The position numbers and the translations under genes were made by a program. DNA of 64,000 bases. It comes from Prochlorococcus sp. MIT 0701 (GTDB lineage Bacteria; Cyanobacteriota; Cyanobacteriia; PCC-6307; Cyanobiaceae). This document shows, piece after piece, positions 11,484-62,646 of the stretch. Location of the stretch: the NCBI RefSeq assembly GCF_000760295.1, contig NZ_JNBA01000027.1, forward strand, positions 62,001-126,000, in the 5' to 3' direction. The notes beneath the pieces were generated by a model that searched no databases, had not been told where the DNA came from, and saw only the letters and a list, made by a program, of their open reading frames with translations. The stretch's first letter is position 1. Each line of letters begins with the position of its first letter.

Positions 11484-12227
11484 TCAACGCTTTTTCCCTC
11501 GCCGCCATACCTCCCAGACGAAGGTAGGCAGGCAAAGAATGCGATTCCATCGGCTTGGCTCTTGGCCCAACCGATAGAGCCATTCGAGCCCTAAGTGACA
11601 CATCCACTGAGGGGCTCGCTTTTTCATGCCAGCCCATACATCGAAGCTTCCCCCAACACCCATCCAGAGGCCTGGGCATGCCCGCCTTACGCGCGGTATC
11701 CATGTTTCTTGACGGGGAACTCCTAGTGCCACAAGCACAAGATCAGGATGCAACGCTCTCAACTTGGCTTCCATGCCAGGCCAAGCATCTTGGGGCTGAT
11801 AGCCATGCGAAGACATCACAAGTCGCAGAGCAGGCAGATCTTGCTTCAGGAATTGCCTCAAACGATCCATGACCTGCGGCGTTGCTCCCACTAGTGCCAC
11901 CTTCCAATCATGAGCCTCTGCATAGGCAAGTAACGAACGTGCCAGTTCAATGCCAGGGCTGCGCGGCACCACAACTCCCTGACGCCTCAGCGCCCAAACC
12001 ACGCCAATCCCATCTGGGATGACTAGATCTGCCGCCGCAATGGCATCACCTAGCCTCGGGTTCTCCCTAGCCGCCATCGTCATCTCCGCATTAAGCGTGA
12101 CGATCTGGCCACCTCCACGAGCATGCAAACCAATGGCTGCAGCCTGAACATCGCGGCATGCGTCCACTGGCACACCTAGAACACTTCGACGGTATTGATC
12201 GCTCGGTGCGGTGCTGGTTGATTCCAT
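11484..12227 (-). CDS. WecG/TagA/CpsF family glycosyltransferase
   Basis: This 247-residue protein matches the WecG/TagA/CpsF family, which transfers sugars such as N-acetylmannosamine(uronate) to lipid-linked glycans. Visible motifs are IVTLNAEMTMAARENPRL, LVIPDGIGVVWALR (Asp-Gly-Ile pair), VALVGATPQVMDRL, LVALGVPRQETWI and WMGVGGSFDVWAG. It is soluble with a peripheral hydrophobic C-terminal region, as in this family. I use the ATG at 12227 over the TTG at 12233. It may take part in the surface polysaccharide pathway whose other genes lie at 50-64 kb; the exact donor and acceptor cannot be read from sequence. Confidence 0.9.
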   Translation of the reverse strand: MESTSTAPSDQYRRSVLGVPVDACRDVQAAAIGLHARGGGQIVTLNAEMTMAARENPRLGDAIAAADLVIPDGIGVVWALRRQGVVVPRSPGIELARSLLAYAEAHDWKVALVGATPQVMDRLRQFLKQDLPALRLVMSSHGYQPQDAWPGMEAKLRALHPDLVLVALGVPRQETWIPRVRRACPGLWMGVGGSFDVWAGMKKRAPQWMCHLGLEWLYRLGQEPSRWNRILCLPTFVWEVWRRGKKR

Positions 12228-12406
12228 CAGCAAGACAACTGAGGTTGAAAATTTAGTTCTCTAAACCTTGAACGCAATCGATGGAGTCCAGAGCCCAATC
12301 GCCACAAGCAAGCGAATGGAGCAACAGCCGATTTGCAAAGAAGCCCCTGAAAAAGTAGCGCTGTGCGAGCCGGGAGGGTTGGTTGGACTGATGTGTTCCT
12401 AACGAC

Positions 12407-13411
12407 TCAGATGGGCTCCTCCAATGAAAGCCCCATGCCGGGGTGTTCGACGGCATGTTCAATCAGGTCAGCCAAACGCAGCGCGCGCGAAGCCTGCTGC
12501 CCATCCACCGCTGGTGTCTCACGACCTCGCAAACACTGAAGAAAATGCTCCAACTCGGCATAGAGAGGCTCAATAGAAGTCGTGCTGACCTCTTCGATAA
12601 AACCGTCATTGCGATACAACAACTCACCGTGATCGGCTGAATACCACTCATGAGCACGACGATGGATATGCAGGGTGTGATTAAGGAAATCAGTCTCAAC
12701 AAGACTTCCCCGACAATGAGCACTGAGACTGCGAATTTTGCGGTGGCTCATCTTGCTAGCCGTGAGGCTCGCCACCACACCATTGCTGAAGCCAAGCGTG
12801 GCATTGACGTAATCGATCGGACCCTCGGCAGTGCGGCCCCCTGCAGCAGCAAGACCTACCACCGGAGCACCCGCCAGCTCAAGAACCAAGTCGAGGTCAT
12901 GAATCATCAGATCAAGCACCACCGACACATCATTGGCTCGGTCTCCATGAGGGCTATGGCGACGAGCCTCAAGAACCACCACCTCCTCATTTTCCACCAC
13001 CTTGATCAACTCTCGAAAGGCAGGGTTAAAGCGTTCAATATGGCCAACCTGCAAGAGCCGTCCAGCCTTATTAGCCGCCACAATCAATGCGGATGCCTCC
13101 TCCTGACTGGCCGCAATCGGTTTTTCGATTAACACATGCAGGCCTGCCTCCAAGCATGCCTGCCCGACCTTGTGATGGAGCAATGTCGGCACAGCAATGC
13201 AGACAGCTTCGACCTCGCCTAGCAAGCTGTGGTAGTCAGGAAACCAATCACATCCAAACTGTTCAGTCGCCAGCTGACCACGCTCAGGATCGGGATCAGC
13301 GACTGCCACCAGCTGCGCATCCTTAAGCAGACTGAGCACACGGGCATGATGCCAACCCATATTGCCAATCCCGATCACACCGACCTTCACCGGAACCATG
13401 GGATCGGTCAT
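12407..13411 (-). CDS. Gfo/Idh/MocA family NAD(P)-dependent oxidoreductase
   Basis: This protein has an N-terminal Rossmann domain with VGVIGIGNMGWHHARVL and the family lysine in HVLIEKPIAASQEEA, followed by the C-terminal alpha/beta substrate domain (YVNATLGFSNGVVASL). Gfo/Idh/MocA enzymes oxidise or reduce sugars, nucleotide sugars or related compounds; the substrate here is unknown. The ATG at 13411 gives 334 residues; the frame is open to a TTG at 13444, with another ATG at 13429. The gene is followed by the WecG-type glycosyltransferase on the same strand after 179 bp, compatible with a sugar-nucleotide role but not proof of it. Confidence 0.88.
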   Translation of the reverse strand: MTDPMVPVKVGVIGIGNMGWHHARVLSLLKDAQLVAVADPDPERGQLATEQFGCDWFPDYHSLLGEVEAVCIAVPTLLHHKVGQACLEAGLHVLIEKPIAASQEEASALIVAANKAGRLLQVGHIERFNPAFRELIKVVENEEVVVLEARRHSPHGDRANDVSVVLDLMIHDLDLVLELAGAPVVGLAAAGGRTAEGPIDYVNATLGFSNGVVASLTASKMSHRKIRSLSAHCRGSLVETDFLNHTLHIHRRAHEWYSADHGELLYRNDGFIEEVSTTSIEPLYAELEHFLQCLRGRETPAVDGQQASRALRLADLIEHAVEHPGMGLSLEEPI

Positions 13412-13447
13412 CGGCAGGCCATGGCGCATCGGGGAAATTATCAACGA

Positions 13448-14731
13448 TCATTCCTCAGTGTGATCGTGACTGGGAAGAATCAGTCGCACACGCTCGATAC
13501 GAGGACCCTTCATCGCCACGATCTCGAATTGCAAACCATCGCAGCGCAAGGCCTCTCCAGCAGAAGGGATGTGTTGCAACTTTTCAAGCAGAAAGCCAGC
13601 CAAGGTGTGATGGCCATCAGCTTCAGGCAAGTCCAGATTGAGCTGTCGATTGAGCTCAATGATCTCAAGATCCCCTGCAACCATCCATGTGTCTGACTGA
13701 CCCTCAATCAGCTCAAGATCCGGCTCGTCGTCGTCAGCATGGGGCTCATCGCCCACGATCTCACCAGTGAGATCGGCAGCTGTAACCAAGCCTTCGGTAC
13801 CGCCATGCTCATCAACGACAAGCAGTAGGGGCTGTCCACTTCGGATCATCGGCAACAATTCAGCCAAAGTGCTCGTCTCAAGAACCCTTGCAGCTGGTTG
13901 TAAAAAAGGTTCAAGCGGAGATTCTGCCTGCAAAGCACCCCGGGAGATGGGTTCCGCCAACCGACGTAAATCAAGCACACCCCTGACATCATCTAGGGAC
14001 TGACCGATCACTGGAAAGCGCGCATGGCGGGTGCTATGCACCACTTTCATCAGTTCAGCGAAGCAGACCCCAACAGGCAAGGTGACCATGCCAGAACGTG
14101 GCACCATCACCTCTCTAACTTGAGTGTCGCGCAAGGCAAAAACACCTTCAAGGATGTTGCGCTCATCAGGACGAAGGCCTGTTACACCACCAATTTCGAT
14201 CAGAGACTCCAGCTCACCAGCAGAGAGAGCAGGAACGAGAGAATCCCAATGTGCATTCAAACCAACCAGCCGCAACATCATCGAAGCGACAGCTTCCATA
14301 AGTGCCAAAAGGGGAGCAAGCACACGCATCACCATCTCCAACAATGGAGCGAGGTTTAGAGCTGCAGCCTCCGGACGATTCAGCACCCAGGCCTTAGGAA
14401 GAAAACCAGCCAACAAGGTGGCCAACACCACAAGCAGCAGAAAAAGCCCCCCGTCCAACCAGCGACTAGCAGGATCAGCGAGAGGCCACCAGCGATGTCC
14501 AACACCACGGCCAACCCAGCCCAGGGCTACCAACGCCAGCATTCCACCCAGTTGAGACACCATCAACGCCCTCCTCAAACGGCGCTGAAGACGATGGACG
14601 GCGGAAGCTCCGGGTTGCTGCTCTTCCACTAAAACCTGTACCCGACTAGGCCGCAGCCGCAACAAGGCAACCTCTCCAGCCGCGAAGAAAGCCGGTAGAA
14701 CCAGCAATACAGCCAGGAAAAGCAACCTCAT
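13448..14731 (-). CDS. CNNM/CorC-type membrane protein with CBS domains
   Basis: This 427-residue protein has three to four N-terminal membrane helices forming a DUF21/CNNM domain (about 1-170), a CBS-domain pair (about 200-325, including REVMVPRSGMVTL and LLVVDEHGGTEGLVTAADL), and a C-terminal CorC_HlyC domain (about 345-420). Such proteins are often annotated as hemolysin-like, but evidence in other bacteria points to magnesium or cobalt export. The ATG at 14731 is used. It precedes the Gfo/Idh gene on the same strand with a short gap, and follows tRNA-Met. Confidence 0.92.
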   Translation of the reverse strand: MRLLFLAVLLVLPAFFAAGEVALLRLRPSRVQVLVEEQQPGASAVHRLQRRLRRALMVSQLGGMLALVALGWVGRGVGHRWWPLADPASRWLDGGLFLLLVVLATLLAGFLPKAWVLNRPEAAALNLAPLLEMVMRVLAPLLALMEAVASMMLRLVGLNAHWDSLVPALSAGELESLIEIGGVTGLRPDERNILEGVFALRDTQVREVMVPRSGMVTLPVGVCFAELMKVVHSTRHARFPVIGQSLDDVRGVLDLRRLAEPISRGALQAESPLEPFLQPAARVLETSTLAELLPMIRSGQPLLLVVDEHGGTEGLVTAADLTGEIVGDEPHADDDEPDLELIEGQSDTWMVAGDLEIIELNRQLNLDLPEADGHHTLAGFLLEKLQHIPSAGEALRCDGLQFEIVAMKGPRIERVRLILPSHDHTEE

Positions 14732-14746
14732 TGAATGAAGAAAATA

Positions 14747-14819
14747 TGGGGGTCGCGAGGATCGAACTCGCCTTAGGCGAATTATGAGTTCGCTGCATTC
14801 ACCAGATTGCTAGACCCCC
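14747..14819 (-). tRNA. tRNA-Met (anticodon CAT)
   Basis: The minus strand folds into a complete cloverleaf of 73 nt: acceptor GGGGGTC/GACCCCC, a short D arm (GCA/TGC), anticodon arm GCGAA-CTCATAA-TTCGC with CAT, variable loop CTAAG, T arm GCGAG-TTCGATC-CTCGC and discriminator A. The 3' CCA is not encoded. The fully paired 1-72 position excludes an initiator. I favour elongator Met; the CAT anticodon also occurs in tRNA-Ile2 (lysidine-modified), which cannot be excluded without comparison. Confidence 0.93.
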
Positions 14820-14831
14820 TCAATCACGGAT

Positions 14832-15386
14832 CTACCACATGCCACGGATAGGAGTGAAGGCCTCAGGCGCCACATTCATCTCAGGACCATCCTCCACCAT
14901 GACAATTTCTGAAGGAACATCCCCTGCAAGGCTGTTATCAAACCCGCTGGAGATATCAACAGTTCGCCAAGGTAGGGAAGGGCTCTGCTCTTCTAGAAGC
15001 ACCTGATAGGTGTTCTGCACAGCAGAACTATCCCAGATGATCGTCTGATCAGGGAAACCAAATCCCATCAAGCGATTGCCCTCATGACTCGCCACAGCGA
15101 TGCCGAGCATATCCGTGAGCTGATGAAGCACATCCACACCCCTGGCATAAGGAGCAGTCCAACTGTAAAAACGACGTTCGATTAAGGCACCAGTGGATTC
15201 CAACGGCCCACATTGGCTCACCTCCACAGGGCCCTTTGACGACTGGTTGGCATCCGGTGCTTCAAGAGTCGTGGTGCAAACCACAGGCCTCGCCCAGGCC
15301 AAACCGCCACCCCATCCAGTGACTGCCAATGGTGTCACCAGGGCCAAACCAAGCATCCTTAGCTTATGGAAGGACACCCAAGCCAT
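14832..15386 (-). CDS. Conserved exported hypothetical protein
   Basis: I do not recognise a named family. The frame opens at 15464, but that start would overlap the divergent pyrE, so I place it at the ATG at 15386 (184 residues); 15356 is a further option. The N-terminus (LRMLGLALVTPLAVTGWGGGLAWARP) is a plausible signal peptide with cleavage near AWA, so the product should be periplasmic or luminal. The mature part has a few cysteines (VVCTTTLEA, SQCGPLES) that could pair, and no repeats. It lies just downstream of pyrE's divergent promoter and 12 bp from the tRNA gene. Confidence 0.7.
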   Translation of the reverse strand: MAWVSFHKLRMLGLALVTPLAVTGWGGGLAWARPVVCTTTLEAPDANQSSKGPVEVSQCGPLESTGALIERRFYSWTAPYARGVDVLHQLTDMLGIAVASHEGNRLMGFGFPDQTIIWDSSAVQNTYQVLLEEQSPSLPWRTVDISSGFDNSLAGDVPSEIVMVEDGPEMNVAPEAFTPIRGMW

Positions 15387-15445
15387 AACTGCAAAAAACA
15401 CGACTACGCGCAAACTAGGCAATGAATCCTTAACGCACCAGCCCA

Positions 15446-16036
15446 ATGAGCCCTCTTCCCCCATCGGCGGAGGCCTGCCGCGATGAGCTGCTCAACCGGC
15501 TAGCGCGAGAGGCCTACCGCCATGGAGACTTCACCCTGGCCTCTGGTCGCCAAAGCAACCACTACGTGAATTGCAAGCCCGTGAGCCTAAGTGGATCGGG
15601 TCTAGAGCTACTCAGTCTTGCTCTACTCGAACATGTGGAGCCTGATGCTGTTGCTGTAGCTGGCCTTACCCTCGGCGCGGACCCGCTAGTAAGTGCAGTT
15701 GCCATGGCAGCAGCACAAGCGGAACGCACTCTCAATGCTCTGATCGTGAGAAAGCAAGCCAAAGGCCATGGCACCGCTGCTTGGCTTGAAGGTCCACTAC
15801 CTCCCAGCGGTGCACGCATCACCGTTTTGGAAGACGTTGTCACCACAGGCGGATCGTCACAAAAAGCAGTGCAGCAGCTGCGTGAGACGGGCTATCTGGT
15901 GACACGCGTCGTCACGATCGTCGATCGACAAGAAGGTGGTAAAGAGGCCTTGAATGCTGCTGAGTTAGAGCTTGTCAGTTTGTACCAGCTCAATCAGGTC
16001 GCTGAGCGGGCCAGACAGCTGGAGACAGAGACATGA
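15446..16036 (+). CDS. pyrE: Orotate phosphoribosyltransferase
   Basis: PyrE makes OMP from orotate and PRPP in de novo pyrimidine synthesis. The 196 residues carry the PRPP-binding motif [18 protein letters not shown] (about 126-143) and the family N-terminal region [16 protein letters not shown]. The stop codon overlaps the following ygfZ-like gene by 4 bp (ATGA), so the two should be cotranscribed and translationally coupled. Confidence 0.95.
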
Positions 16037-16884
16037 GCAACGCGATCAAGCAACGCTGGGACGCCCTTAAACCCCTATTGAGGCTGGAGGGTTCTGGTAG
16101 TCGAGACTTTCTTCACGGCCAGACCAGTGCCGATCTGCTGGCTGCCGAAACAGGCTGCCTGCTTCGCTGCTGCTGGCTCACCGCCACAGGAAGAGTGCGG
16201 GCGCTGTTGGAGATTCGCCTGGATGACAATGGTGCAGATGTGCTTGTTCTCGCCGGCGATCACAACGCAGTAGCCACGGGATTTGAACAGGTGATCTTCC
16301 CTGCAGATCAGGTTCGTCTGCAGCCCATCAACACAATTAGACGACTACAGAGACTCGACCAACTCAAACAGGAGCAAACTCCTGAGGTGATCTGGCTGCT
16401 GCCAGACGAACCTCTGCCAAAACACTGGGCTGCGATGGAGCAAGCCAATAAAGAGCAAGTAGAACGCTGGCGGCTCAAGCAAGGATTCCCCCTTGAACCT
16501 GGTGAAATCAATGGCGACACCAACCCATTTGAGCTTGGACTTGCAGCATGGGTGAGTCTCAGCAAAGGCTGCTACTTGGGGCAAGAAACTTTGGCCAAAT
16601 TGGCCAACAGCGGTGGCATCAAACAACAACTGCGCTATTGGCAGACAGATAGCCCGCTTGCCGTAGGCCAGAAGCTGATTACTCGTCAACCAAAGGAAGG
16701 CGCCAGCAATCGCGCCGGAGTGATCACTTCAGCGATGCAAGACCCAGAGTCAACAGGCAGTCTTGGCCTGGCCTTGGTGCGCCACCAGTCGCTAGCAGAG
16801 CCTGAACTGTTTGAGGAGGAAGACTCAACAAAAGTGTGCCTCTCCATTCCTAGTGGATTTGAGCCTCCATCAAGGAGTGACTAG
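16033..16884 (+). CDS. ygfZ: YgfZ/GcvT-domain folate-binding protein
   Basis: This 283-residue protein resembles YgfZ (IBA57), a folate-dependent helper for maintenance of certain iron-sulfur enzymes. The family signature K-G-C-Y-x-G-Q-E is visible as [14 protein letters not shown] (about residues 176-189), following the GcvT-like beta domain with [12 protein letters not shown] near residue 24. It is coupled to pyrE by a 4-bp overlap. The C-terminal tail past residue 260 is not conserved-looking. Confidence 0.88.
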
Positions 16885-16948
16885 GGACACCCAGATAACT
16901 TTACAGAAGGGAACTCTGCAAAAACACTGACATATAAATTGCCACTAC

Positions 16949-16983
16949 ATAAGTGCATGTATAGATATAGAACATGCACTTAT
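16949..16983. other. 12-bp perfect inverted repeat at edge of AT-rich insert
   Basis: ATAAGTGCATGT (16949-16960) is followed after 11 nt by its exact complement ACATGCACTTAT (16972-16983). It lies 65 bp after ygfZ at the left edge of the AT-rich stretch. No T-run follows, so it is not a classical terminator; it could be an RNA hairpin at the end of the pyrE-ygfZ transcript or an operator for the downstream kinase remnant. Confidence 0.8.
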
Positions 16984-17123
16984 TTGCCGCGATTTCTTTG
17001 AGATTTATTCTTGAGCCTATGTAAATAGGCTGTTGCACTTTTGCTATAGCCATATACAATCTATTTATTCAATATAATTCACACAATAGTCCTCATATTT
17101 CGAGCGGAGAAGCGATTGGCGAC

Positions 17124-18061
17124 TTGTCAGCTGATGCAATTAAAGACATACTGCAAACTGATAGCTACACACTCCAGCCGGTAACAGGTGGCTTGTCTGG
17201 CGCAAAACTTTATAAAGTTTGCGTCGATGGCCATGATTATCTTATTCGCCATACTTCCGGCATTTTTGGGAGCAAAGAAATTCACCAAGAATTTTACATT
17301 CAAGAGTTCATGAGCAATAAGCAAATTACACCTAAAGTTTATTACAGTGATTCCAATTTAGGCATTATTGTAATGGATTTCATTGAGAATACACTGCCAA
17401 AAGGTCGTAGTCCAAATATATTAAATAATATACCAAATGGTCTAGATAAGATCATTAAACTGATGAGAACATTGCATAAAACTCCACGTGAGGATAAAAA
17501 CTTATCTTACCGGATAGCTCAAGACTACATTGCTTATAGTTTAGCAAATACTCCTCAAGACTTTTTGCAGACTGCTTATGTTGAAATTATCAAATCCTAT
17601 GCCAAAAGGAATGGCCCCTGGATCAATTAGTCATTACACATAATGACTTTAGATCAGATAATCTACTTTTTAATCAACAATTTCAACTAATAGACTGGGA
17701 GCTTTCTGGGCCAAGTCACCCTCTATATGATTTAGCATATTTTAGCAATTATCAAGCTATTAGCCAAGATGAAAATTCCGACATTTTAAGCCTATATCTT
17801 GAACGCATGCCGCGAGAAAATGAGCTTGGTACTTTTAAAACTTTAAGAGGATTTGCATACGTATTTAGCGCCATATTATGCTTACCCGGCCTTGCTGCAG
17901 AGGGCTTCAAGACTTTGAATGATTATTACCATCATCTGACTAACGATACTATACGGCAAATATGGGACAAGGTTGATAATGGCGACCTGGATATCAATAA
18001 TGACATGGATGAGTTTTCTATCTCAATGAGATTATTAGCAGAAGCAAAAGAATACTTATAA
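17124..18061 (+). pseudogene. Frameshifted phosphotransferase-type kinase (APH/choline kinase fold)
   Basis: Two reading frames together make one kinase of the aminoglycoside phosphotransferase/choline kinase superfamily. The first (TTG at 17124 to 17632) holds the nucleotide loop VTGGLSGAKLYKV and YLIRHTSG and ends prematurely. The second frame continues with PLDQLVITHNDFRSDNLLF and LIDWELSGPSHPLYDLAYF, which are the catalytic HND-x4-N loop and the DWE metal site, and runs to 18061. Adding one C to the C4 run at 17615-17618 restores the full frame of about 312 codons. So the gene is either inactivated by a single-base deletion or carries a sequencing error. Base composition is clearly more AT-rich than the neighbours, suggesting acquisition from outside. 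The substrate (choline, ethanolamine, amino sugar, other) cannot be told. Confidence 0.85.
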
Positions 18062-18242
18062 ATTGCAGCCCAAGCCAATATTGCCAGTATTAGAGCGATC
18101 CAGGCCACAATGACAAGCAGGCATATTCTGTAGCAGTGAAGTTCACTAAGTTTTGGCCTTTAGAGAATAGGCAACATGGTGAATTGTCTAGCTAAAGATA
18201 TACAGCCTTTACTAAGGAGCGCCTAAGGATTATCTGAGGGTG

Positions 18243-19748
18243 CTAAGTGCCCGTATTGCTTAAACCAGCTTCATCTTGTTTCAACAGCTCGTCTTGCTTC
18301 AACAGCCATGCCGCCACGGCCCAAGTAGCGAGACAATCATCGTGGTTGTAATCAAAGATCCAACGCAAGGAATAGGAACTGCCCCGATCTTGAAGACCTG
18401 AGCCACGCCACTGGCGCCACCAAAGCAGAGCTCGAGCACCATCGACCCCCACCTGACGCCAACAAAATCCCAGCCAACTAGCCACGCACTTCAACCCATA
18501 ACTGTTTAAAGGCAATCGCCAATAACGCCGCACCCGATCGTGCACATCAATCATGCGCTTGCTCAGAGCACTCAACTCAGCCTCGTCAGCTCCCTGCCGC
18601 TGAGCCATGCGGCGAAGAGCCAGAGACTCCGTTTCGCCGTAATGCATCACTGGCCAGTCGGGATAACTTTTCAGCATGCGTTGCAGCCGCTGCCAGCAAC
18701 GTGCCTCGCCGTGCTCATAAAGCACCAGAAAAGGGTGATAATGCGCTCCCTCTAAATCCCAACTGCCATCTGGCCTGCGGCCCAGCCGGACAAAACCATG
18801 TAGAAAATCATCGCGAGCATCTGGATCAGATTCGATGTCGTACAACAACACCCCAGGGGCAGTGGCCAATTCCGGCAAAGCTGATGCGGAGTCCAACCGC
18901 TCATAACGACCATCCCGCTGAGCCCGGGCCTGAGCGACAAGCTGAGGAGCTACCTCCCCGTGCTGCTCGCCGAAATGTTGCAAACGACTTCCGAGTTCAT
19001 TCGGATCGGCTGCCGCTAACTCCTGCAAACCAAGGATCCCCAGTTCCTGAAGCATCTGCCGTCGACGAGTCCCGATACCGCTCACCTCACTGAGATGTCC
19101 CTCTGCAGCAGCCACGGCATTGCAAACACCCCGCCAGGAACACAACTTGCACTTACGCCGATCAGCAACCAAAGGCGGAGGCTCGCTCAGCTCGAGGTCG
19201 GCGGCCAACTTGACCAGTACTTCCTCAAGCTGCCGCTGCAGCCCCCCCAACAATGAAACTCGCTCCATGTGAAGACTCCGACCAGCTCCAGCTAGAGCCA
19301 ATCCTTCAGGCACGGGAGCCGACTGCAGCGGTGCCAATAAACGACCAGCAAGGGCCAAAGCCAAGCGATGCTCTCTGGTCAATCGTCGACCCTGACGTGC
19401 AAGCACCGGTCGGTAAGCAAATGCCCCCCAACGACTTTGCCCCTCGACCCTCTGCAGCAATGGAGGATGGGCCTCCAATAACTGCCCCGCAGGACCAACC
19501 CCCTTAAGCCTCAGCCCCACCACCCCTGGGCATCCTTGACTGCAACCGTCTAGACCCCTGCATGGTTTGCGCGGCAACAAAGCAACAAAGTTGCGCTGCT
19601 GATCATCGAGTTGCAGAGTGCGGTGAGCAGTCCAAAGCCGTTGTTCTCCATCGCCATAACGGTCTAACCAAGCCCTACGACGACAGCGCAGCCAACTACG
19701 CAGCAAGCGATCAGTCAGAACGTTGGCAGCGAGAGGGGTGGCACCCAT
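18243..19748 (-). CDS. TM0106-type RecB-like nuclease with cysteine cluster
   Basis: This 501-residue protein matches the TM0106 family of RecB-like putative nucleases. An N-terminal RecB-like part begins SWLRCRRRAWLDRYGD (about 18-33), and a cysteine set including CKLCSWRGVC (about 202-211) probably binds an iron-sulfur cluster together with Cys22. A helix-hairpin-helix-like stretch follows (VSGIGTRRRQMLQELG, about 223-238), then an RNase H-like exonuclease domain (LLYDIESDPDA, about 299-309, and YNHDDCLATWAV, about 471-482, with Asp/Glu metal ligands). The role in DNA metabolism is inferred from domains only. It is divergent from the phosphohexomutase. Confidence 0.85.
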   Translation of the reverse strand: MGATPLAANVLTDRLLRSWLRCRRRAWLDRYGDGEQRLWTAHRTLQLDDQQRNFVALLPRKPCRGLDGCSQGCPGVVGLRLKGVGPAGQLLEAHPPLLQRVEGQSRWGAFAYRPVLARQGRRLTREHRLALALAGRLLAPLQSAPVPEGLALAGAGRSLHMERVSLLGGLQRQLEEVLVKLAADLELSEPPPLVADRRKCKLCSWRGVCNAVAAAEGHLSEVSGIGTRRRQMLQELGILGLQELAAADPNELGSRLQHFGEQHGEVAPQLVAQARAQRDGRYERLDSASALPELATAPGVLLYDIESDPDARDDFLHGFVRLGRRPDGSWDLEGAHYHPFLVLYEHGEARCWQRLQRMLKSYPDWPVMHYGETESLALRRMAQRQGADEAELSALSKRMIDVHDRVRRYWRLPLNSYGLKCVASWLGFCWRQVGVDGARALLWWRQWRGSGLQDRGSSYSLRWIFDYNHDDCLATWAVAAWLLKQDELLKQDEAGLSNTGT

Positions 19749-19801
19749 CAGTCGACGTTACGGCCCCTGCCTGCTAGATCCAGTCCATTAGTTGATCATC
19801 T

Positions 19802-24273: not shown

Positions 24274-24990
24274 ATGGCACACCGAACTCACCAACTCATA
24301 ACCAAACATGACTGGATTGAAATCAAGAGTGATTTAAAGCTAGCAGGAGAAGCAAAAGTCAAGATACTTAATCACTTCAAACTTTCTGCTGGTGATTCAT
24401 TTGTGATCACAGAAGTGGATGGTGATCTCACTAGTGAATACGATGGCCTTAATGAAGGCGATTCTGCAGGGCGTTTTAAAAGTGAGCACGGAGGAAGACT
24501 TGATCTTTTCGTGACTTATCAAGGTGGCGATGGCAATGATATTGAGCTCTATACAAAACCATTCTTTGGTGTTCTTCCTGATAGCTTGAGTGAGACAAGA
24601 ATCATTGGTTCTGATGCTGATGATTCATTAACTGGAACGTCTGCAGATGAAGTGATCTTTGGTGCAAATGGTAATGATGTTTTGCTAGGAGGCGGTGGAG
24701 ATGATCAAGTCACTGGAGGCAATGGCGATGACAAGCTTGATGGTGGCTTAGAAGATGACACCCTTAAAGGTGATTGTGGAGCTGATAATTACATCCTCAG
24801 TAGCGGGGAGAATATCTATGAGTCTTTCTCAATCGATGAGAATGATCAGGCTGTGGTAGGGAAAGGTGTTGACTTATCATTCCGGCAAGTTGGTGATAAT
24901 CTATTGATTAAAGGAGTTGCCATTCACAGCACATTGCTTGATGTGGATAAGAATAACTTCCTAGCTGCTGATTACATTGACTACATCTAG
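24274..24990 (+). CDS. Small RTX-type calcium-binding repeat protein
   Basis: This 238-residue protein has a central run of RTX nonapeptide-type repeats (GSDADDSLTGTSADEVIFGANGN to GGLEDDTLKGDCGADNYIL, about residues 110-175), the calcium-binding GGxGxDxx beta roll. An N-terminal domain of about 100 residues precedes it and a C-terminal beta-rich domain follows. It has no signal peptide, as expected for type I secretion, but no ABC exporter or membrane fusion gene is nearby. Base use looks more AT-rich than flanking genes, suggesting later acquisition. It could be a fragment of a larger RTX protein; a surface or extracellular role is inference. Confidence 0.8.
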   Translation: MAHRTHQLITKHDWIEIKSDLKLAGEAKVKILNHFKLSAGDSFVITEVDGDLTSEYDGLNEGDSAGRFKSEHGGRLDLFVTYQGGDGNDIELYTKPFFGVLPDSLSETRIIGSDADDSLTGTSADEVIFGANGNDVLLGGGGDDQVTGGNGDDKLDGGLEDDTLKGDCGADNYILSSGENIYESFSIDENDQAVVGKGVDLSFRQVGDNLLIKGVAIHSTLLDVDKNNFLAADYIDYI

Positions 24991-30711: not shown

Positions 30712-30978
30712 AAAGCCTTGTAGCATCGTTAAGTGTGGGTTTTTAATCAGCGACGCTGCTCGAGATCACTATCTGCCACTCACAACGGCAAGAATCATTG
30801 CAATGATAATTTCACAGGTGTAGGAGTACCTTCATTTCACAGACGGGACAGCAATTCTCATTAGCGATTTCATTCCACATCCGCTCAATGATCGAGATCT
30901 ACTCATCCCTATCAATCATGCGAGATTTGCAATTAGACCAGCAAAAAGAAACAACTAGCCAGGGCTAAATCACGGAGA

Positions 30979-32499
30979 ATGAACAAGAAAAAGATTATTC
31001 AGCCTGCTAATGATGCAAATTCAGCGGCACTTACAATATTTTCCTCGCCATCGCCAAGAAGATGGAGAATACGCCTGCTCATAATCGCCCTGATCTGCTC
31101 AGCAGCGTTCATCTTTAAAGCCTTGGTGGCGGTAAATCTCACCAGCCTTTGGAATGATGAACTCTCCACAGTAGAGAAATCCTTTCAACCATCACTAAGT
31201 TTTCTGATTGACTATTTACGTACCGATGTTCACCCCCCTTTTTATTACGTCATTCTCTGGTTAGCAGGAAAGATCTTCGGAGAAACTGTAATCGTACTGC
31301 GATCATTCTCCTGGGTCGCATATGTGGTTGGCTGTGCAGCAATAAGCGCTGCAGCCTGGAGCTATCAGAAATCATCAGTTGCATCAATCTGTGCGCTCTT
31401 ACTTTCTTGTTCAATACCTTTCACAGTTAGCTATTCAGTCGAGGGCAAAGCTTATGCATTCTTATTTGCATTGATCAGCACCGCACTAGTATTTCGGTTG
31501 CGCGTAATACAAAACAAACCTAATTCAAGCTACTTATACGTACTTACATCTGCCGCAGTAGGCCTTACTCATTATTATGGGCTTGGTCTATTAATAGCAC
31601 AAACATTAACAGACGGAATCCGTAATAAAAGCCGCCTTTTTTCTTGTGGTTGCTTAGCTCTTGTGCTGCCAAGCCTTTGGATGTTAATCAACTTAGAATT
31701 CTTGACTGGCCAAGGTGGGCGAGAATGGCTAGCGCCTACTAACCTTCTCTCCCTAAAATTACTTCAAAATCTTCTTTTAACTGCCTTAGGTCCACACTGG
31801 AAACTAGTAATTGCAATAGGTCTTGGAACCTTCCTTCTACTGAAACTCACCCAAACAAATACCTCTTCGCCCTCAGGTCTATTTCTTATACAAGCATGGG
31901 GATTAGATGCAGGACTGTTACTCTTAATAATCACTTATACAATATCTATTTGGAAGCCTTCTGCATTGCCTCGTTATTACATAGTTCTAGCACCTGCTTG
32001 CCTAGGAGTCATTAGTTGCTGGCTAGGGTCACACATACATTCCAAAGATCTGCTGCAATGGCGCGGGGTGCTTCTAACAGGAGTAATAGCAATTCTATTA
32101 TCACTTTTCTGGACGGATTCATTCCTAAGGATAGCCCCAGAAAAACCATATAAACAACGCAATGATTCAAATTATAGGGCCCTGTCGATTAACGCAGCAA
32201 CAAGCGAAATAAAACTCACGCGTGAATGCAGTGCGCTCAATGCCAGTGATTATGTACTAAGGCAAGGCAGAATATTATTGCCAGGCCCAAACTGGATTTG
32301 CATCAATAATAATAGACTGCCTAAAATCGCTTCAAAAATCAAAGGTGGCCAAGAAGTCGTAATGGCCGATAGCAAATCAAGAAACCTACGCAAGCATCGA
32401 TTACAGAAAGATGCCAAAGTGCTAGAAGGAATGGGATTCAACTGCTCTAAAGCAGAAGTGATCGAGCCTGCAAGCCAAGTCATACGTTGCTGGCGTTAG
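30979..32499 (+). CDS. GT-C fold membrane glycosyltransferase (PMT-like), AT-rich paralogue
   Basis: This 506-residue protein has about ten or more membrane helices and GT-C motifs: LTSLWNDELSTVEKSFQPS after the first helix (acidic catalytic loop), DVHPPFYYVI, and VEGKAYAFLFA. These resemble dolichyl/polyprenyl-phosphate-sugar transferases of the PMT/ArnT group. It probably moves a sugar from a polyprenyl-phosphate donor to an acceptor outside the membrane. The C-terminal part from about 410 is a soluble domain. It shares clear similarity with the protein at 59858-61387, with the same SLWxDEL, KSFQPS, HPP and EGKxYA motifs in order, but is visibly more AT-rich. Confidence 0.85.
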   Translation: MNKKKIIQPANDANSAALTIFSSPSPRRWRIRLLIIALICSAAFIFKALVAVNLTSLWNDELSTVEKSFQPSLSFLIDYLRTDVHPPFYYVILWLAGKIFGETVIVLRSFSWVAYVVGCAAISAAAWSYQKSSVASICALLLSCSIPFTVSYSVEGKAYAFLFALISTALVFRLRVIQNKPNSSYLYVLTSAAVGLTHYYGLGLLIAQTLTDGIRNKSRLFSCGCLALVLPSLWMLINLEFLTGQGGREWLAPTNLLSLKLLQNLLLTALGPHWKLVIAIGLGTFLLLKLTQTNTSSPSGLFLIQAWGLDAGLLLLIITYTISIWKPSALPRYYIVLAPACLGVISCWLGSHIHSKDLLQWRGVLLTGVIAILLSLFWTDSFLRIAPEKPYKQRNDSNYRALSINAATSEIKLTRECSALNASDYVLRQGRILLPGPNWICINNNRLPKIASKIKGGQEVVMADSKSRNLRKHRLQKDAKVLEGMGFNCSKAEVIEPASQVIRCWR

Positions 32500-32794
32500 C
32501 AAAAGGGGAATGAGCCAATAGAATGGCTATTACCATTCCTTTAGAGAAATAAGCCAGAAAGCGAACACCGGAATGGAGCCAATTACATATAGGGGTGCCT
32601 ACTGAATAGGCTAAAACAAACAACATGTCAATCACTATTCTCTATAATCTGTTCGACTAAGCAACCACAACTCACACAAGCAAGGCTACTTAAAACCCTT
32701 GCTTAATATTTGCTATTACTAGTTATTAGGCAGCACATGCAGAAATAGATACTGCTTCGCAGTCATACCAGAACAGCCAGCCTAATGGTGAGAT

Positions 32795-34118: not shown

Positions 34119-36194
34119 ATGGCCACTCGCGCTTTTCCTCTTGCCGCAATCACAGGACATGGAACGCTCAAGCTGTCACTGCTCCTAGCAGCGGTTGATC
34201 CAGAACTGGGTGGGGTGGTGATTGCCGGCGGTCGCGGCACTGGTAAATCGGTCTTGGCTCGGGGGCTGCATGCACTGCTACCGCCAATCGATGTGCTCGA
34301 TCTCGAAGCCATTAGCAAAGATCAGCAGCCTTCAGAAATTCATCGCCCCATTGGCCTCAACCTGGACCCACAGCTCCCTGAGGAATGGGACGAAGCGACC
34401 CAACGGCTCATGACGCAGCAGGGCGCCAACCTTGAGGAGGACTCATCGGAGCCACTGCCGAGCCGTGTGATCCCAGCACCCTTTGTACAAGTTCCAATTG
34501 GCATCACTGAAGACAGACTCGTTGGCGCTGTTGACGTCACCGCCTCCCTAACCAGCGGAACCCCTGTTTTCCAACCTGGACTACTAGCAGAGGCCCATCG
34601 GGGAGTGCTCTATCTAGATGAGCTCAATCTGTTGGATGACGGCATCGTCAACCTGATGCTGGCGGCAGTGGGGGCCGGCGAAAACCGAGTAGAGCGAGAA
34701 GGCCTCAGCCTCAGCCATCCCTGCCGTCCACTACTCATTGCCACTTACAACCCTGAAGAAGGGGCAATGCGCGACCACCTACTAGACCGTTTCGCCATCG
34801 CGCTCTCCGCCGACCAGCTCATCAGCAACGAGCAACGTGTTGAGATCACCGAGGCAGTCCTGGCCCATGGCCAATGCAGTGTCAGCTTCGCTGCAAAGTG
34901 GGCCCAGGAGACCGAAGCACTAGCAACCCAGCTGATACTGGCCCGTCAATGGCTGCCGGATGTACAAATCAGCCACGCACAAATCGAATACCTGGTCAAT
35001 GAAGCCATTCGTGGAGGCGTGGAAGGGCATCGCTCCGAGCTTTATGCAGTACGTGTGGCAAGGGCCCACGCAGCTCTCAGCGGCCGAGACCAGGTTGAAG
35101 CAGACGACCTCCAAGTCGCCGTGCGGCTGGTCATTGCACCGCGTGCCTTGCAGTTGCCGCCTCAAGAAGAGCAAATGGAGCCTCCTCCACCAGAGCAACA
35201 GCAAGCACCGCCACCACCAGATCAATCGCAAGAAGACACTTCTGAAGAGGATGAAGATGATGACGAAGACAGCCCTGAAGAGCAGACAGCACCACCGGTT
35301 CCAGAAGAGTTCATGCTTGATCCAGAAGCAATCGCAATCGATCCAGACCTTTTGCTGTTTTCTGCAGCCAAGTCAAAAAGTGGAAACAGTGGGAACCGTT
35401 CGGCAGTACTCAGTGACAACCGTGGCCGCTACGTCAGGCCCATCATCCCTCGTGGCCCTGTTCGACGTATCGCCGTCGACGCGACATTAAGAGCGGCAGC
35501 CCCATATCAAAAAGCTCGTCGATCCAGACAGCCGGATCGCACAGTGATTGTTGAAGAAGGAGACCTGAGAGCCAAGTTGCTGCAGCGCAAGGCTGGTTCA
35601 CTCGTCATTTTTCTTGTAGATGCAAGCGGTTCGATGGCTCTAAATCGCATGCAGGGCGCCAAGGGAGCAGTCATTCGCTTGCTCACCGAAGCCTATGAAA
35701 ACCGAGATGAGGTTTCACTCATCCCATTCCGAGGAGAACAAGCAGAGGTTTTACTACCTCCAACCAAATCGATTACTGCAGCAAAAAGAAGGCTTGAAGT
35801 GATGCCTTGCGGTGGCGGCTCTCCTCTCGCCCATGGCCTTACCCAGGCTGCTCGTGTGGGTGCTAACGCATTGGCAAAAGGAGATCTCGCCCAAGTTGTC
35901 GTTGTTGCTATCACTGATGGACGCGGAAATGTACCTTTAGGAACCTCGTTAGGCCAACCGCAGCTCGAAGGAGAAGACCCCCCGGACTTGAAGCAAGAAT
36001 TACTTGATGTTGCAAGCCGCTATCGCAGCCTTGGAATCAAATTGCTGGTCATTGACACTGAGCGCAAATTCATCGGCAGTGGCATGGGGAAAGAGCTGGC
36101 AGAAGCTGCTGGCGGCAAATACGTACAACTACCGAAGGCCAGCGATCAAGCGATCGCTGCCATCGCTCAGGACGCGATCGGAGATCTCAAATAA
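34119..36194 (+). CDS. chlD: Magnesium chelatase subunit D
   Basis: ChlD is the AAA+/VWA subunit that, with ChlI and ChlH, inserts magnesium into protoporphyrin IX for chlorophyll. The ATG at 34119 gives 691 residues beginning [15 protein letters not shown]. An N-terminal AAA+ domain (about 1-340, including [19 protein letters not shown] and [14 protein letters not shown]) is followed by a proline/acidic linker (about 350-410) and a C-terminal VWA domain with a MIDAS ([17 protein letters not shown], about 508-524). The RGTGKS P-loop is intact, unlike some degenerate ChlD. Divergent from folK; the stop is 11 bp before the nucleoside hydrolase start, so coupling is possible. Confidence 0.95.
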
Positions 36195-36204
36195 ACGCAC
36201 AATC

Positions 36205-37338
36205 GTGCTTCGTCATCTGTTTGCCATTGCATTTTCGGCTCTTTTAATGGTCGCCTTTCCCATCGCAACGCAGGCGATGGACTGGATCATCGAAACCGAT
36301 ATGGGTGTGGATGATCAGATCTCGATTGTGTACATGGCAACCAAGTCACTCTCATCAGATGCGATCAACATCAAAGCCGTCCTAACCCAGGGCAATGGAA
36401 TGGCCCATGCCGGCCCTGCCAAAAATAACGCTGTGCGACTACTACGACTAGCTGGCCTGAAGTCAACTGAGCTGCCAGATGTGGGCACCGGTAGTCAGTA
36501 CGGACTCGATGGCTTTCATCAATATCCAGCCGACTGGAGATATAACAATGACAACCTCAGTCATGTCTCTATACCTGATTACCAGGAAGCCTGGAAAGAA
36601 CACAATCAATCCTCAGAAAGTCTGCTTAAGCAACATTTGATCCGCTCCAAAAGGACGAATCAACCCATTTCCATCCTCTCCCTTGGCACATTTACCAACA
36701 TTGCCAAAGTTCTTCATGAGAGTCCTGAACTAGGAGGACAGATCACCCAAATTATCTGCATGGCAGGAGCTGTGGATGTTCCCGGGAACCTCAGGGTTCA
36801 TGGATTTTCCGACCAGGCAAAGAACAGATTCGCTGAATTCAACGCCTGGATCGATCCCATTGCCACCAAGATGGTTATTGAATCTGGCATCCCGATCAAA
36901 TTGATCCCACTTGATGTCACCAACAAAGCATCGCTCACTAAAGATTTCCTCGAAAGATTCAAAGCAAAAACCTCAGGGGAAGCAGCCACCGCCATGGCTG
37001 AATGGTGGCAAAAAAACCTCAACCCAGAGACCGGCGAGTACTACAATTGGGACCCATTAGCAACAGCTATTGCGATCAACCCAGGTATCATTACCAAGCA
37101 GAAAGCAGTCAAAATCACTGTTCAGGCGAACACAACACTGAGCCAACAAGACGGCGATGTGATCTTTGGAGAAAAGTCAGATTTCGACATTCTCAATTGG
37201 AAAGGACATACACGGCGATCCTTCAATCCCTACAACGCAGGACGCACACAACGGAGCCACTCCGGGGAACTGGTGAATGTCATCTTTGATGCTGATATTG
37301 AACAATACGAAAAGGAGCTCATTGAGACTTTCAGCTAA
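36205..37338 (+). CDS. Exported inosine-uridine-type nucleoside hydrolase
   Basis: I start this at the GTG at 36205 (377 residues); the frame opens earlier inside chlD, which is a shadow. The N-terminus (FAIAFSALLMVAFPIATQAM) is a signal peptide, so the enzyme should be periplasmic. The family motif (usually DTDxGxDDxxA) is seen as ETDMGVDDQISI, with the first Asp replaced by Glu, and a downstream acidic site [11 protein letters not shown] (conserved Asp near the C-terminus). It cleaves the N-glycosidic bond of nucleosides, giving base and ribose, perhaps to scavenge nucleosides. It follows chlD closely but is likely functionally separate. Confidence 0.85.
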   Translation: MLRHLFAIAFSALLMVAFPIATQAMDWIIETDMGVDDQISIVYMATKSLSSDAINIKAVLTQGNGMAHAGPAKNNAVRLLRLAGLKSTELPDVGTGSQYGLDGFHQYPADWRYNNDNLSHVSIPDYQEAWKEHNQSSESLLKQHLIRSKRTNQPISILSLGTFTNIAKVLHESPELGGQITQIICMAGAVDVPGNLRVHGFSDQAKNRFAEFNAWIDPIATKMVIESGIPIKLIPLDVTNKASLTKDFLERFKAKTSGEAATAMAEWWQKNLNPETGEYYNWDPLATAIAINPGIITKQKAVKITVQANTTLSQQDGDVIFGEKSDFDILNWKGHTRRSFNPYNAGRTQRSHSGELVNVIFDADIEQYEKELIETFS

Positions 37339-37378
37339 AAACAACTGATCCGAACTGATGAGCAAGAACAATTTAATT

Positions 37379-38248
37379 CTATTCTTTTGAAGTCTCAGCG
37401 GGATAAAGCTCATCAAAAAATGCACCAAAGCCAATAGTAACGCTACGCACAGCATTCATGAATTGCGGATCATTCGTAAGTTTTTCCACATCTCCACCAA
37501 CTGCATCAAATTTTGCGGTAAGAGAGCGGGCGTAACTCACAGTCTGCTTGAGATCATTAACTGTTTTGGGATTGTCGAATGCTTCAACCACATTGTTGAT
37601 ATGTCCGGTTGCAAGATTGAGATTGCTGATCATCGGTTCAGCGCGAGCCACCTCATCCTTGAGCTGACTCATTAATTTGGAGACATCTTTGGCGGTGCTC
37701 TCGATCTGCTTGGTGGAGTCAACCAAATAGGTGACCAACTTCTGCTTCTCTGCCTCTTGCAGGAGGCGCTCAAGCGTCTCTGTCACTGAAGAGATGCTCA
37801 CCGGAGGTTCACCAATAATCGTTGCCCCGTTACACAACACCTTGCTGCCAGAACAATCCTTTGATCCAGGCAGGGGAGCATTAGCAGGCAACTGCTTGCC
37901 AAGACTCACCAACGCCACCTGAGAGTCACCCCCAAGCAATGAACTAGAAGCCACCTTGGCGACGACCGGCTTGGAAAGGCGCAGATCACCCTTATTGATT
38001 TCAAGGGTGGCCTGCACAGCTTGTGAAGTCACATCGATTTTGACGACAGTGCCCACCAAGATGCCGCGATAAGTCACGGGGGAACGTTCAGCAAGACCAG
38101 TTGCATCGGGGAAGTTCACCTTGATGCTCCAAACCTTGGCGCCAAGACGCACACCCCTTAACCAGAGCAAGGTTCCTGCAAAGGCAACCACTGCTCCAAC
38201 GATGGAGAATCCGACAATGGCATCACGAACGCTGCGTCGCATAGACAT
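37379..38248 (-). CDS. MlaD/Mce-domain lipid transport protein
   Basis: This 289-residue protein has one N-terminal transmembrane helix (AIVGFSIVGAVVAFAGTLLWL) and a Mce/MlaD domain (VKVNFPDATGLAERSPVTYRGILVGTV), followed by a coiled helical C-terminal part (about 140-289). It is the periplasmic substrate-binding part of Mce-type lipid transport systems that keep outer-membrane lipid asymmetry, as with cyanobacterial Ycf22-like proteins. I use the ATG at 38248; the stop of the ABC gene overlaps it by one base, so the pair should be coupled. Confidence 0.88.
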   Translation of the reverse strand: MSMRRSVRDAIVGFSIVGAVVAFAGTLLWLRGVRLGAKVWSIKVNFPDATGLAERSPVTYRGILVGTVVKIDVTSQAVQATLEINKGDLRLSKPVVAKVASSSLLGGDSQVALVSLGKQLPANAPLPGSKDCSGSKVLCNGATIIGEPPVSISSVTETLERLLQEAEKQKLVTYLVDSTKQIESTAKDVSKLMSQLKDEVARAEPMISNLNLATGHINNVVEAFDNPKTVNDLKQTVSYARSLTAKFDAVGGDVEKLTNDPQFMNAVRSVTIGFGAFFDELYPAETSKE

Positions 38249-59857: not shown

Positions 59858-61387
59858 CTACTGAGAGTCTCCGACAGTGGACGTCATCAGCGTGCAACGC
59901 AACACGCGCGTGTACTCAATCTGTGGGCCATCCTCCCGACATGTATACCCACCTCGTTCAGCTCTCTTGATCAGGGGCTTGAGCCGACGATGCATTGATT
60001 GGTCAGGACCGCTACTCGCAAGCCAGATAACCGATGGCAAAGGGGGGTTATCTAGTCGTTTCTGCAGCGCAGCACCATCACCCCAAGGCATTGGATTTCT
60101 AAGCATTCGACCCGCCGCAACTTCCATATGATCACTCAAATTAAGCAGCCTCGACCGCCGTCCATAGCGCTCCACTTGGCCAGCTAGTGACTGGCTAATC
60201 GCACGAAAATTGTCTTGTTCCCTACCACCGGCACCGCCGAGCCCAGGATGAAGCCCTATATAGCTCTGCTGCCACCACAAAACAGTTAGGGCCGTCAAAG
60301 CGACAAGAGCCAAGGCACTACCTCGGAGGTTGAGTCGAAGCCCCCCCAACTTCACCGCAATCAAAGGCAGAGCTGCCGGCACCAGCACCACGAAGTAGCG
60401 GCTAAAAGCCAACGGCTTCACAAACGACACAGCCACTACTGCCAGAAGCATCAACGCGGATGGAATCAAACCGCTCTGATCCAAAAGAGAACCAGCAACT
60501 ACAGCTGGCTGTAAATCCCTTCTATAGCCATCATCACCATCATGACCAGCAGCCAGTCGCCCCCATCGACGCAAAGCCAGCATCAGCAAGACAAACAACC
60601 CAATTTTCGGCAAAGGCCAAGGACCAAGGGCCCTTGCCAAGGTCTCCTCAAGCAGAGCGAAATCTGGCTGAGCCAACCAGCCACCCGTGGAATCACGAAA
60701 AAGATAAGCAGCCGCGTAAGCAATCCAAACCAAAGCAGGAAGCACAGCCAGTGTGGCTATGCCGCCCAGCCGCCAGCGCTGCTGCCATAGATCCCAAGCC
60801 GCCGCCGCCGCAAACAAAAAAAGACCATAGAAATGTGTCAGTGCTGCAAGGCAAACCGTGATGCCATACAACAGAAGATCTCTTGCAAAAACAGTGCTTG
60901 ATCCCACTGACTGCAAAAGCCGACGCCGCCACCACCAAGCAAGTCCCACAAACAACACCAAAAGGGCATAACTCTTGCCTTCGATCGCAAAACGCACCGG
61001 ATAAGGACTGCAAAAAGCCAGCAATGCCGCAAGGCACAAACTCCGACCCCGCGACACCCCTAGCGCCTGAGCCAAGGCGCCTGCCTGAAACACCATCACG
61101 ATTCCACCAAGCCCATAGGCCAGCCAGGAAAGCAATCGCAACGTCACAGCGTTCTGACCAACGCTCTGACCCCAGAACCAGAGCAGGCTGTAATAAACAG
61201 GCGGATGGGTGTCATTGCGGAGCATTGCCAACAGATCCCTAAAACTCGGCTGAAAACTCTTGCCAACGCTGTAAAGCTCATCACTCCACAAGCTGGTGAC
61301 ATCCACCAACAAAAGAGCCTTAAAGGCAAATGCCACACAGACCAGGATGACCACTACTCCCAGCCCAAAGCGCCGCCAGAACAACAT
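59858..61387 (-). CDS. GT-C fold membrane glycosyltransferase (PMT-like), second copy
   Basis: This 509-residue protein has about ten or more membrane helices and the motifs VTSLWSDELYSVGKSFQPS, DTHPPVYYSLL and IEGKSYALLVLF, as in GT-C transferases that use polyprenyl-phosphate sugars. The C-terminal part is a soluble domain (about 400-509). It is a clear paralogue of the protein at 30979-32499, with the same motif order and RYF-VVL-PA near residue 330. I use the ATG at 61387, which shares a base with the cca stop; a GTG at 61390 also fits. Its composition is GC-balanced, unlike the AT-rich copy. Confidence 0.86.
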   Translation of the reverse strand: MLFWRRFGLGVVVILVCVAFAFKALLLVDVTSLWSDELYSVGKSFQPSFRDLLAMLRNDTHPPVYYSLLWFWGQSVGQNAVTLRLLSWLAYGLGGIVMVFQAGALAQALGVSRGRSLCLAALLAFCSPYPVRFAIEGKSYALLVLFVGLAWWWRRRLLQSVGSSTVFARDLLLYGITVCLAALTHFYGLFLFAAAAAWDLWQQRWRLGGIATLAVLPALVWIAYAAAYLFRDSTGGWLAQPDFALLEETLARALGPWPLPKIGLFVLLMLALRRWGRLAAGHDGDDGYRRDLQPAVVAGSLLDQSGLIPSALMLLAVVAVSFVKPLAFSRYFVVLVPAALPLIAVKLGGLRLNLRGSALALVALTALTVLWWQQSYIGLHPGLGGAGGREQDNFRAISQSLAGQVERYGRRSRLLNLSDHMEVAAGRMLRNPMPWGDGAALQKRLDNPPLPSVIWLASSGPDQSMHRRLKPLIKRAERGGYTCREDGPQIEYTRVLRCTLMTSTVGDSQ

Positions 61388-62646
61388 CACCTCAACGCCA
61401 CCTGCTTATCGATCAACTCCAGCCTGAGCCGCTGTAATTCGGCCCCCAAAGCCGGACCGGGTCGCCAGCCCTGATCAATCAGGGCCTGTGCCGATACAGG
61501 AGATTTCACCTGCCGCCAACGCCCCCACCAACGCAGCAAGGGTCGCCACATCGGTACACCCAAACAAACGCAAAGAGCAACCGCCTCTGGCTGCCAACCA
61601 TTGGCCTCCAAGGTTTCGCACCAGCGAGCGGGCGACCACGTCGACAAACTCTCAGCGACCTCTAGCGAAGCCAACAAAATCTGCAATTCGGCGGCTTCCG
61701 CCAACAACCTTTGCTGCAATTGTGGCAACTGCAACCGTTCTGCCATAGCCAGAGGATCCGCAGCTCCAGCCACCAATGCTGTCAGCAGCGGCAGCCCCAA
61801 ACGCCAGGCCCTGCGCATTCGACGATGCCAGTTTTGATCAGCCTGAAGGCCCTCATCAAGTAACACCAGAGCTCCCCAGTCCTGCAAATGAGCCACTGCC
61901 TTCTGCCAAGGCTCCCTTTCAAATAACAACTCCAGCTCCATCCGCAACCGCGTGGAAAGGGCTGGCGGTGCCAGCTTCGGCGCTTCGCCAGGACGCCAAG
62001 CCCAAGGCCAGGATTGAAGAGTGGAGCGCACCTGAGCAAGAGCCTCAGGCGCCAATACAAAACCAAGCCGGGCCGCATAACGAGCCCCTCGAACGACTCG
62101 CGTCGGATCATCCGCGACACTGTTTGAGTGTAAAAAAGCCAGCTGACGCATGGCTAAAGCCGCCCAACCATCATGGGGATCCAACAAGGTCATCCCTGGT
62201 AACTCCAAAGCCATGGCATTCACCGTGAAGTCCCTTCGGGCTAAGTCTTCTTCGAGATGACCTTCCGTGACCTGCGGGTTTTGTCCAGGAGCTGCATAGG
62301 TTTCTTGCCGAGCAGTGGCTAAATCAAGCAATACGCCATCAACCACAAGTTCCACCGTTCCGTAAGCCCCATGCACACGCAGCTGCGGCAACTGCTCTGG
62401 CCCTAAATGACGGCGAAGCGCCTTGGCTAAAACCACCGCTGAACCCTCCACCACCAAATCGAGATCAGGCAAACCTCGCCAGGGATCACAATGAACCCGA
62501 TGCAACAGGCCATCTCGAACCGCACCACCCACCAAGGCAAGGCGTTTAATCCCAACCTCTGACGCAACTTGCTGCAGTACCGCCAACAAACCCATTGGCA
62601 AGCCTGGTCCATCGAATCCAGGCTCTGGCTTCACCAGACTCTCCAT
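61387..62646 (-). CDS. cca: CCA tRNA nucleotidyltransferase
   Basis: This 419-residue enzyme adds or repairs the 3' CCA of tRNA, which fits the lack of an encoded CCA in tRNA-Met. The class II head domain shows LALVGGAVRDGLL and PDLDLVVEGSAVVLAKAL (DxD metal pair), then RRDFTVNAMAL, LHSNSVADDPTRVVRGARYAAR. The C-terminal tail region is less conserved. The start is the ATG at 62646, divergent from kdsD. Confidence 0.93.
   Translation of the reverse strand: MESLVKPEPGFDGPGLPMGLLAVLQQVASEVGIKRLALVGGAVRDGLLHRVHCDPWRGLPDLDLVVEGSAVVLAKALRRHLGPEQLPQLRVHGAYGTVELVVDGVLLDLATARQETYAAPGQNPQVTEGHLEEDLARRDFTVNAMALELPGMTLLDPHDGWAALAMRQLAFLHSNSVADDPTRVVRGARYAARLGFVLAPEALAQVRSTLQSWPWAWRPGEAPKLAPPALSTRLRMELELLFEREPWQKAVAHLQDWGALVLLDEGLQADQNWHRRMRRAWRLGLPLLTALVAGAADPLAMAERLQLPQLQQRLLAEAAELQILLASLEVAESLSTWSPARWCETLEANGWQPEAVALCVCLGVPMWRPLLRWWGRWRQVKSPVSAQALIDQGWRPGPALGAELQRLRLELIDKQVALR

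Follow-up and report, generated by a model that had tools for sequence, protein, structure and literature searches.

Introduction

Gene gain by Prochlorococcus through homologous recombination in flanking core genes has been described for nitrate assimilation genes, and the available part of that account (PMC6370341) depicts accessory genes lodged between core genes, tracts that end within those core genes, and a donor resembling a close relative. The locus described here is like that route in all these respects and unlike it in that a single kinase gene is concerned, in the LLIV clade rather than the clades treated there, and in that the presumably imported copy is broken. The gene itself resembles the APH family (PF01636) and the choline kinases (PF01633) in its motifs and domain scores and differs from them in being split between two reading frames.

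The locus lies in a window of 64,000 nucleotides of Prochlorococcus sp. MIT 0701 (positions 62,001 to 126,000 of contig NZ_JNBA01000027.1), a strain that belongs to LLIV according to the available part of PMC4421930. The word "pseudogene" was not found in the searched texts on MIT0701 and MIT0702, and we do not claim that the gene is absent from print. Comparison of the locus with its relatives leads us to consider it likely that an accessory kinase gene was imported and is now a young pseudogene in MIT0701. We set out below the split, the nature of the gene, its surroundings and the alternatives.

A kinase gene split between two reading frames

Two overlapping forward-strand frames divide one APH/choline-kinase-like protein between them. 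Frame A (17124-17630) encodes the ATP-binding N-lobe, 168 aa counted from a TTG at 17124; its open stretch amounts to 201 codons and thus extends upstream of that TTG, and its stop ends at 17630 rather than at 17632, the end given in a first, sequence-only reading. Frame B (17585-18061) encodes the C-lobe and is the only one to hold the HND-x4-N and DWE motifs, in the form of an HNDFRSDN catalytic loop followed by DWE, which bears out the earlier placement of the catalytic half in a different frame running through to 18061; its earliest ATG, GTG or TTG, at 17807, lies 3' of these motifs. Frames A and B share 17585-17627, and passing from A to B takes a -1 step. Against the Pfam APH profile (PF01636, cut-off 23.2 bits), the C-half scores 46.2 bits over profile positions 158-217, and the N-half, at 13.8 bits (E 0.051), gives a weak match under the cut-off over the complementary positions 3-123. 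That these are complementary halves of one protein, as first proposed, and that the split is not a product of chance, follows from a natural single-frame orthologue that spans both at 95-96% identity. The split of the kinase across two frames is real.

This orthologue is found in G004, a MAG of the same genus, as one frame of 331 aa that likewise lies between ygfZ and the TM0106-family gene; a protein identical to it is public in CAJWUF010000008.1 (uncultured cyanobacterium MAG). Base-by-base alignment of the two copies places a one-base length difference and one adjacent substitution within 17601-17607, 8-14 bases upstream of the run of four C at 17615-17618 on which the break had earlier been blamed. 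Adding a C to that run does open one frame by arithmetic, but this is not what G004 shows: the run has four C in both copies, hence the same length in the one intact orthologue found. Since the intact state is known from one copy, and that in a MAG, the ancestral state is one that we infer. Upstream, the window has ATT at 17067-17069 where G004 has an in-frame ATG, so that the candidate natural starts are the ATG at the 17067 position, in G004, and TTG 17124, present in both copies. Between the two kinase copies we counted 6 synonymous and 9 non-synonymous codon differences, too few to show relaxed selection; the corresponding figures for the part of ygfZ at 16402-16881, again small, are 2 and 2.

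Kinase family and distribution

The intact orthologue reaches 63.0 bits against PF01636 and so, like the C-half of the window copy and unlike the N-half alone, exceeds the family cut-off. HNDFRSDN and DWE, which we take to be the HxDxxxxN catalytic loop and the D(W/F)E motif of the APH family, align in frame B with four remote relatives (L022-L025; L026 was left out). Scores against the choline/ethanolamine kinase family (PF01633, cut-off 29) are marginal, 33.9 bits for the orthologue and 29.2 for the C-half, and say little on substrate; the best solved relative by sequence is the choline kinase 4r77 (E 1.1e-5). Judging from these superfamily scores, a substrate such as choline or a similar alcohol is a guess. 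More specific families were tried with the intact orthologue and rejected: APH(3') aminoglycoside phosphotransferase (NF033068; 25.4 bits vs a cut-off of 205), the thiamine kinase ThiK (TIGR02721; 46 bits vs 299.45), and the GntI kinase (NF041256; 59.1 bits vs 357), the last a matter of remote superfamily similarity only. A structure prediction for the orthologue, made without an alignment, has a mean pLDDT of 41 and was set aside.

The gene occurs in two of the five genus genomes, the window's own and G004. In a draw from the phylum, 6 of 386 match at E <=0.001: the genome of the window itself, and five that have remote kinases of 25-31% identity, G004 not being reported there. One of the remote relatives, L024, adjoins an ORF that we take to be nucleotidyltransferase-like; Lic-type choline kinases adjoin ORFs of this kind. 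As to mobile elements, an origin from which we reject, there were no matches in 50,697 phage records; two stretches in IMG/VR fit a pattern, neither of them confirmed, and 76 plasmid records hold remote relatives only, all below 60% identity, with 20 at 21-27% among the matches listed.

An AT-rich insert within a probable recombination tract

The kinase frames lie in an AT-rich insert of about 1.35 kb (16885-18242, forward strand) between two core genes, ygfZ (CAF17-like; 16033-16884, forward) on the left and a gene for a TM0106-family RecB-like nuclease (18243-19748, reverse) on the right. The AT-richness noted at the outset is confirmed by a GC content of 36.9% over 16885-18213, compared with 54.9% in ygfZ, 57.5% in the TM0106 gene and 53.5% in the window. 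In three of the five genus genomes (G001, G002 and G003), ygfZ adjoins the TM0106 gene, and 10-28 bases between the BLAST-aligned ends stand in place of the insert; these empty junctions support the view of this DNA as an insert. No tRNA lies at the insert junction, the sole tRNA in the window being tRNA-Met at 14747-14819, and the only direct repeats near both ends are a 13-base pair at 16930 and 18054 (92%), which may be due to chance. At the insert's left end, just past ygfZ, a perfect inverted repeat with arms of 12 bases and a loop of 11 occupies 16949-16983. The 3' end of the TM0106 gene (18243-18320) contains an 18-base repeat encoding LLKQDE at the C-terminus of its protein, and the copy number of this repeat seems to vary between the window and G002/G003.

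The similarity of the window to its relatives switches around the insert. Sites that separate G004 from G001 occur only outside it, and those that flank it define a G004-like tract of about 1.9 kb (16413-18282): all 83 informative sites to the left (16413-16882) and both of the two to the right (18265-18282) are G004-type, and beyond, at 18283-18400, 19 of 21 are G001-type. Identity to G004 drops from 94% (18243-18345) to 81% (18346-18500). The left edge of the tract is sharp, and the right edge, resting on two sites and this fall in identity, is less certain. Measured over 250-base blocks, the window matches G004 at 96-100% identity across the seven blocks of 16501-18250; outside, this figure falls within 80-86% for 14 of the 17 blocks at 12001-16250 (67, 92 and 96% in the remainder) and within 78-85% for all five at 18501-19750, regions where 16 of the 17 and all five blocks, respectively, show 94-99% identity to G001. 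From 19751 onward G001 identity is lower and mixed (65-96%), and the contrast with the G004-like tract is thus a local one. Such a switch is the pattern expected of import by homologous recombination through core neighbours.

Smaller G004-like patches were also seen. One, at 15571-15703 in a presumably pyrE-like gene, has 31 consecutive G004-type sites amid G001-like DNA and appears as a second small recombination tract; a further one, at 16308-16358, has 12 such sites.

Alternative explanations of the split locus

The sequence-only reading had left three options for the split, a recent pseudogene, a phase-variable gene and a sequencing error. An error, with the gene intact in the living strain, has in its favour that the MIT0701 assembly is a draft (2,592,571 bases in 53 contigs) and that the frame can be kept, as the intact G004 orthologue at the same place attests. 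Against it stand the substitution directly beside the length change and the rarity with which runs of four bases are misread by Illumina GAIIx chemistry. In a survey of ORFs of at least 100 aa, compared between the window and G001 at a match of >=60% identity (breaks near gene ends would escape it), 54 of the 87 G001 ORFs kept (17,613 aa) and 54 of the 58 window ORFs kept (17,950 aa) were matched, in each case with one ORF matched in two frames. The first of these, which is no conserved gene, occupies the spacer that lies upstream of what we take to be a histidyl-tRNA-synthetase-like gene. The second, the window ORF at 59858-61390, is whole in the window (510 aa), G001 keeping its last codons in two frames, and represents a remnant in G001 rather than a break in the window. 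Thus not one of the 54 window ORFs matched in G001 represents a window gene disrupted by a frameshift, and with no such break seen across some 53 kb of conserved ORFs, an assembly error within the 1 kb of the kinase is unlikely. The platform argues likewise: the available part of PMC4421930 states that isolates were sequenced on the Illumina GAIIx, all but two being assembled with Newbler, and MIT0701 is such an Illumina assembly.

Programmed -1 frameshifting, or some other recoding that would still yield a full-length kinase, could draw on the overlap of the frames, the -1 step and a short hairpin downstream. It is made highly improbable by what the overlap (17585-17627) holds: read by eye, it has no in-frame X XXY YYZ heptamer, and the RNA downstream is no more stably folded than its shuffled versions (z -0.18; of 200 shuffles, 81 fold at least as well), so that neither the slippery heptamer nor the stable structure of a programmed -1 frameshift was found, and the C4 run and the hairpin are also in the intact G004 copy, where a shift would be harmful. 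Switching by slippage in the C-run can be virtually dismissed, the run being only four bases long and invariant between the two copies found, with no variation in tract length of the sort that marks contingency genes; to our knowledge, contingency tracts are longer than runs of 4-5 bases. As for where the gene came from, its presence in two of five genus genomes might suit a gene that the genus had from its ancestor and that G001, G002 and G003 have since lost. This is very unlikely given the GC content of the insert (36.9%), the presence of the gene in only 2 of 400 family genomes, and the passage from G001-like to G004-like and back to G001-like DNA, which points to import here whatever the gene's older history. 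Of the three options, a recent pseudogene is the best supported.

A possible route to the lesion

The altered stretch at the lesion is a 10-base word that also occurs at 17395-17404, 205 bases upstream, and that is present twice in the window insert and once in G004. Copying from the upstream word could account at once for the substitution and for the change in length. When the insert was simulated 4000 times with a Markov model, the full 10-base word turned up in 0.5% of the simulations, its 9-base core in 1.2% and the minimal 8-base core in 6.1%, figures that give weak support, the repeated words having been picked after the fact. It is a tentative suggestion, more doubtful than probable, that templated copying from 17395-17404 broke a just-imported gene in a single event; if true, this would be a small case of a newly acquired gene inactivated by local template switching.

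Other differences from G001 in the window

Several other features of the window differ from G001. The ORFs at 30979-32499 (506 aa) and 59858-61390 (510 aa) look like mutual relatives and membrane proteins with a common motif such as SLWxDEL...KSFQPS...DxHPPxYY, and neither 30720-32659 nor 60021-61348 is matched by DNA in the G001 stretches compared. The same holds for 1.2 kb at 36167-37397, where an ORF presumably encodes a nucleoside hydrolase. An ORF of 238 aa (24274-24990) within a 1-kb block of 43.9% GC has glycine/aspartate-rich repeats, which we take to be of the calcium-binding type; it may be a remnant, because G001 carries about 1.5 kb of extra DNA at 24316-24370.

Conclusion

In the course of events that we favour, an accessory gene of the APH/choline-kinase superfamily would have come from a G004-like relative and entered an LLIV Prochlorococcus genome on a tract of about 1.9 kb, with homologous recombination acting through ygfZ and TM0106, the core genes on either side. 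A one-base change in length within 17601-17607, probably a true mutation, leaves the catalytic C-lobe out of frame with the N-lobe and would make both fragments inactive as an enzyme; this break may precede or follow the import. The site of the lesion is corrected here and a sequencing error made unlikely, results that have no bearing on any wider open question. Gene gain and loss of this kind is ordinary, and the locus offers one clear example, in which an LLIV Prochlorococcus would have gained an accessory gene by way of its conserved neighbours and the gene would soon have been broken.
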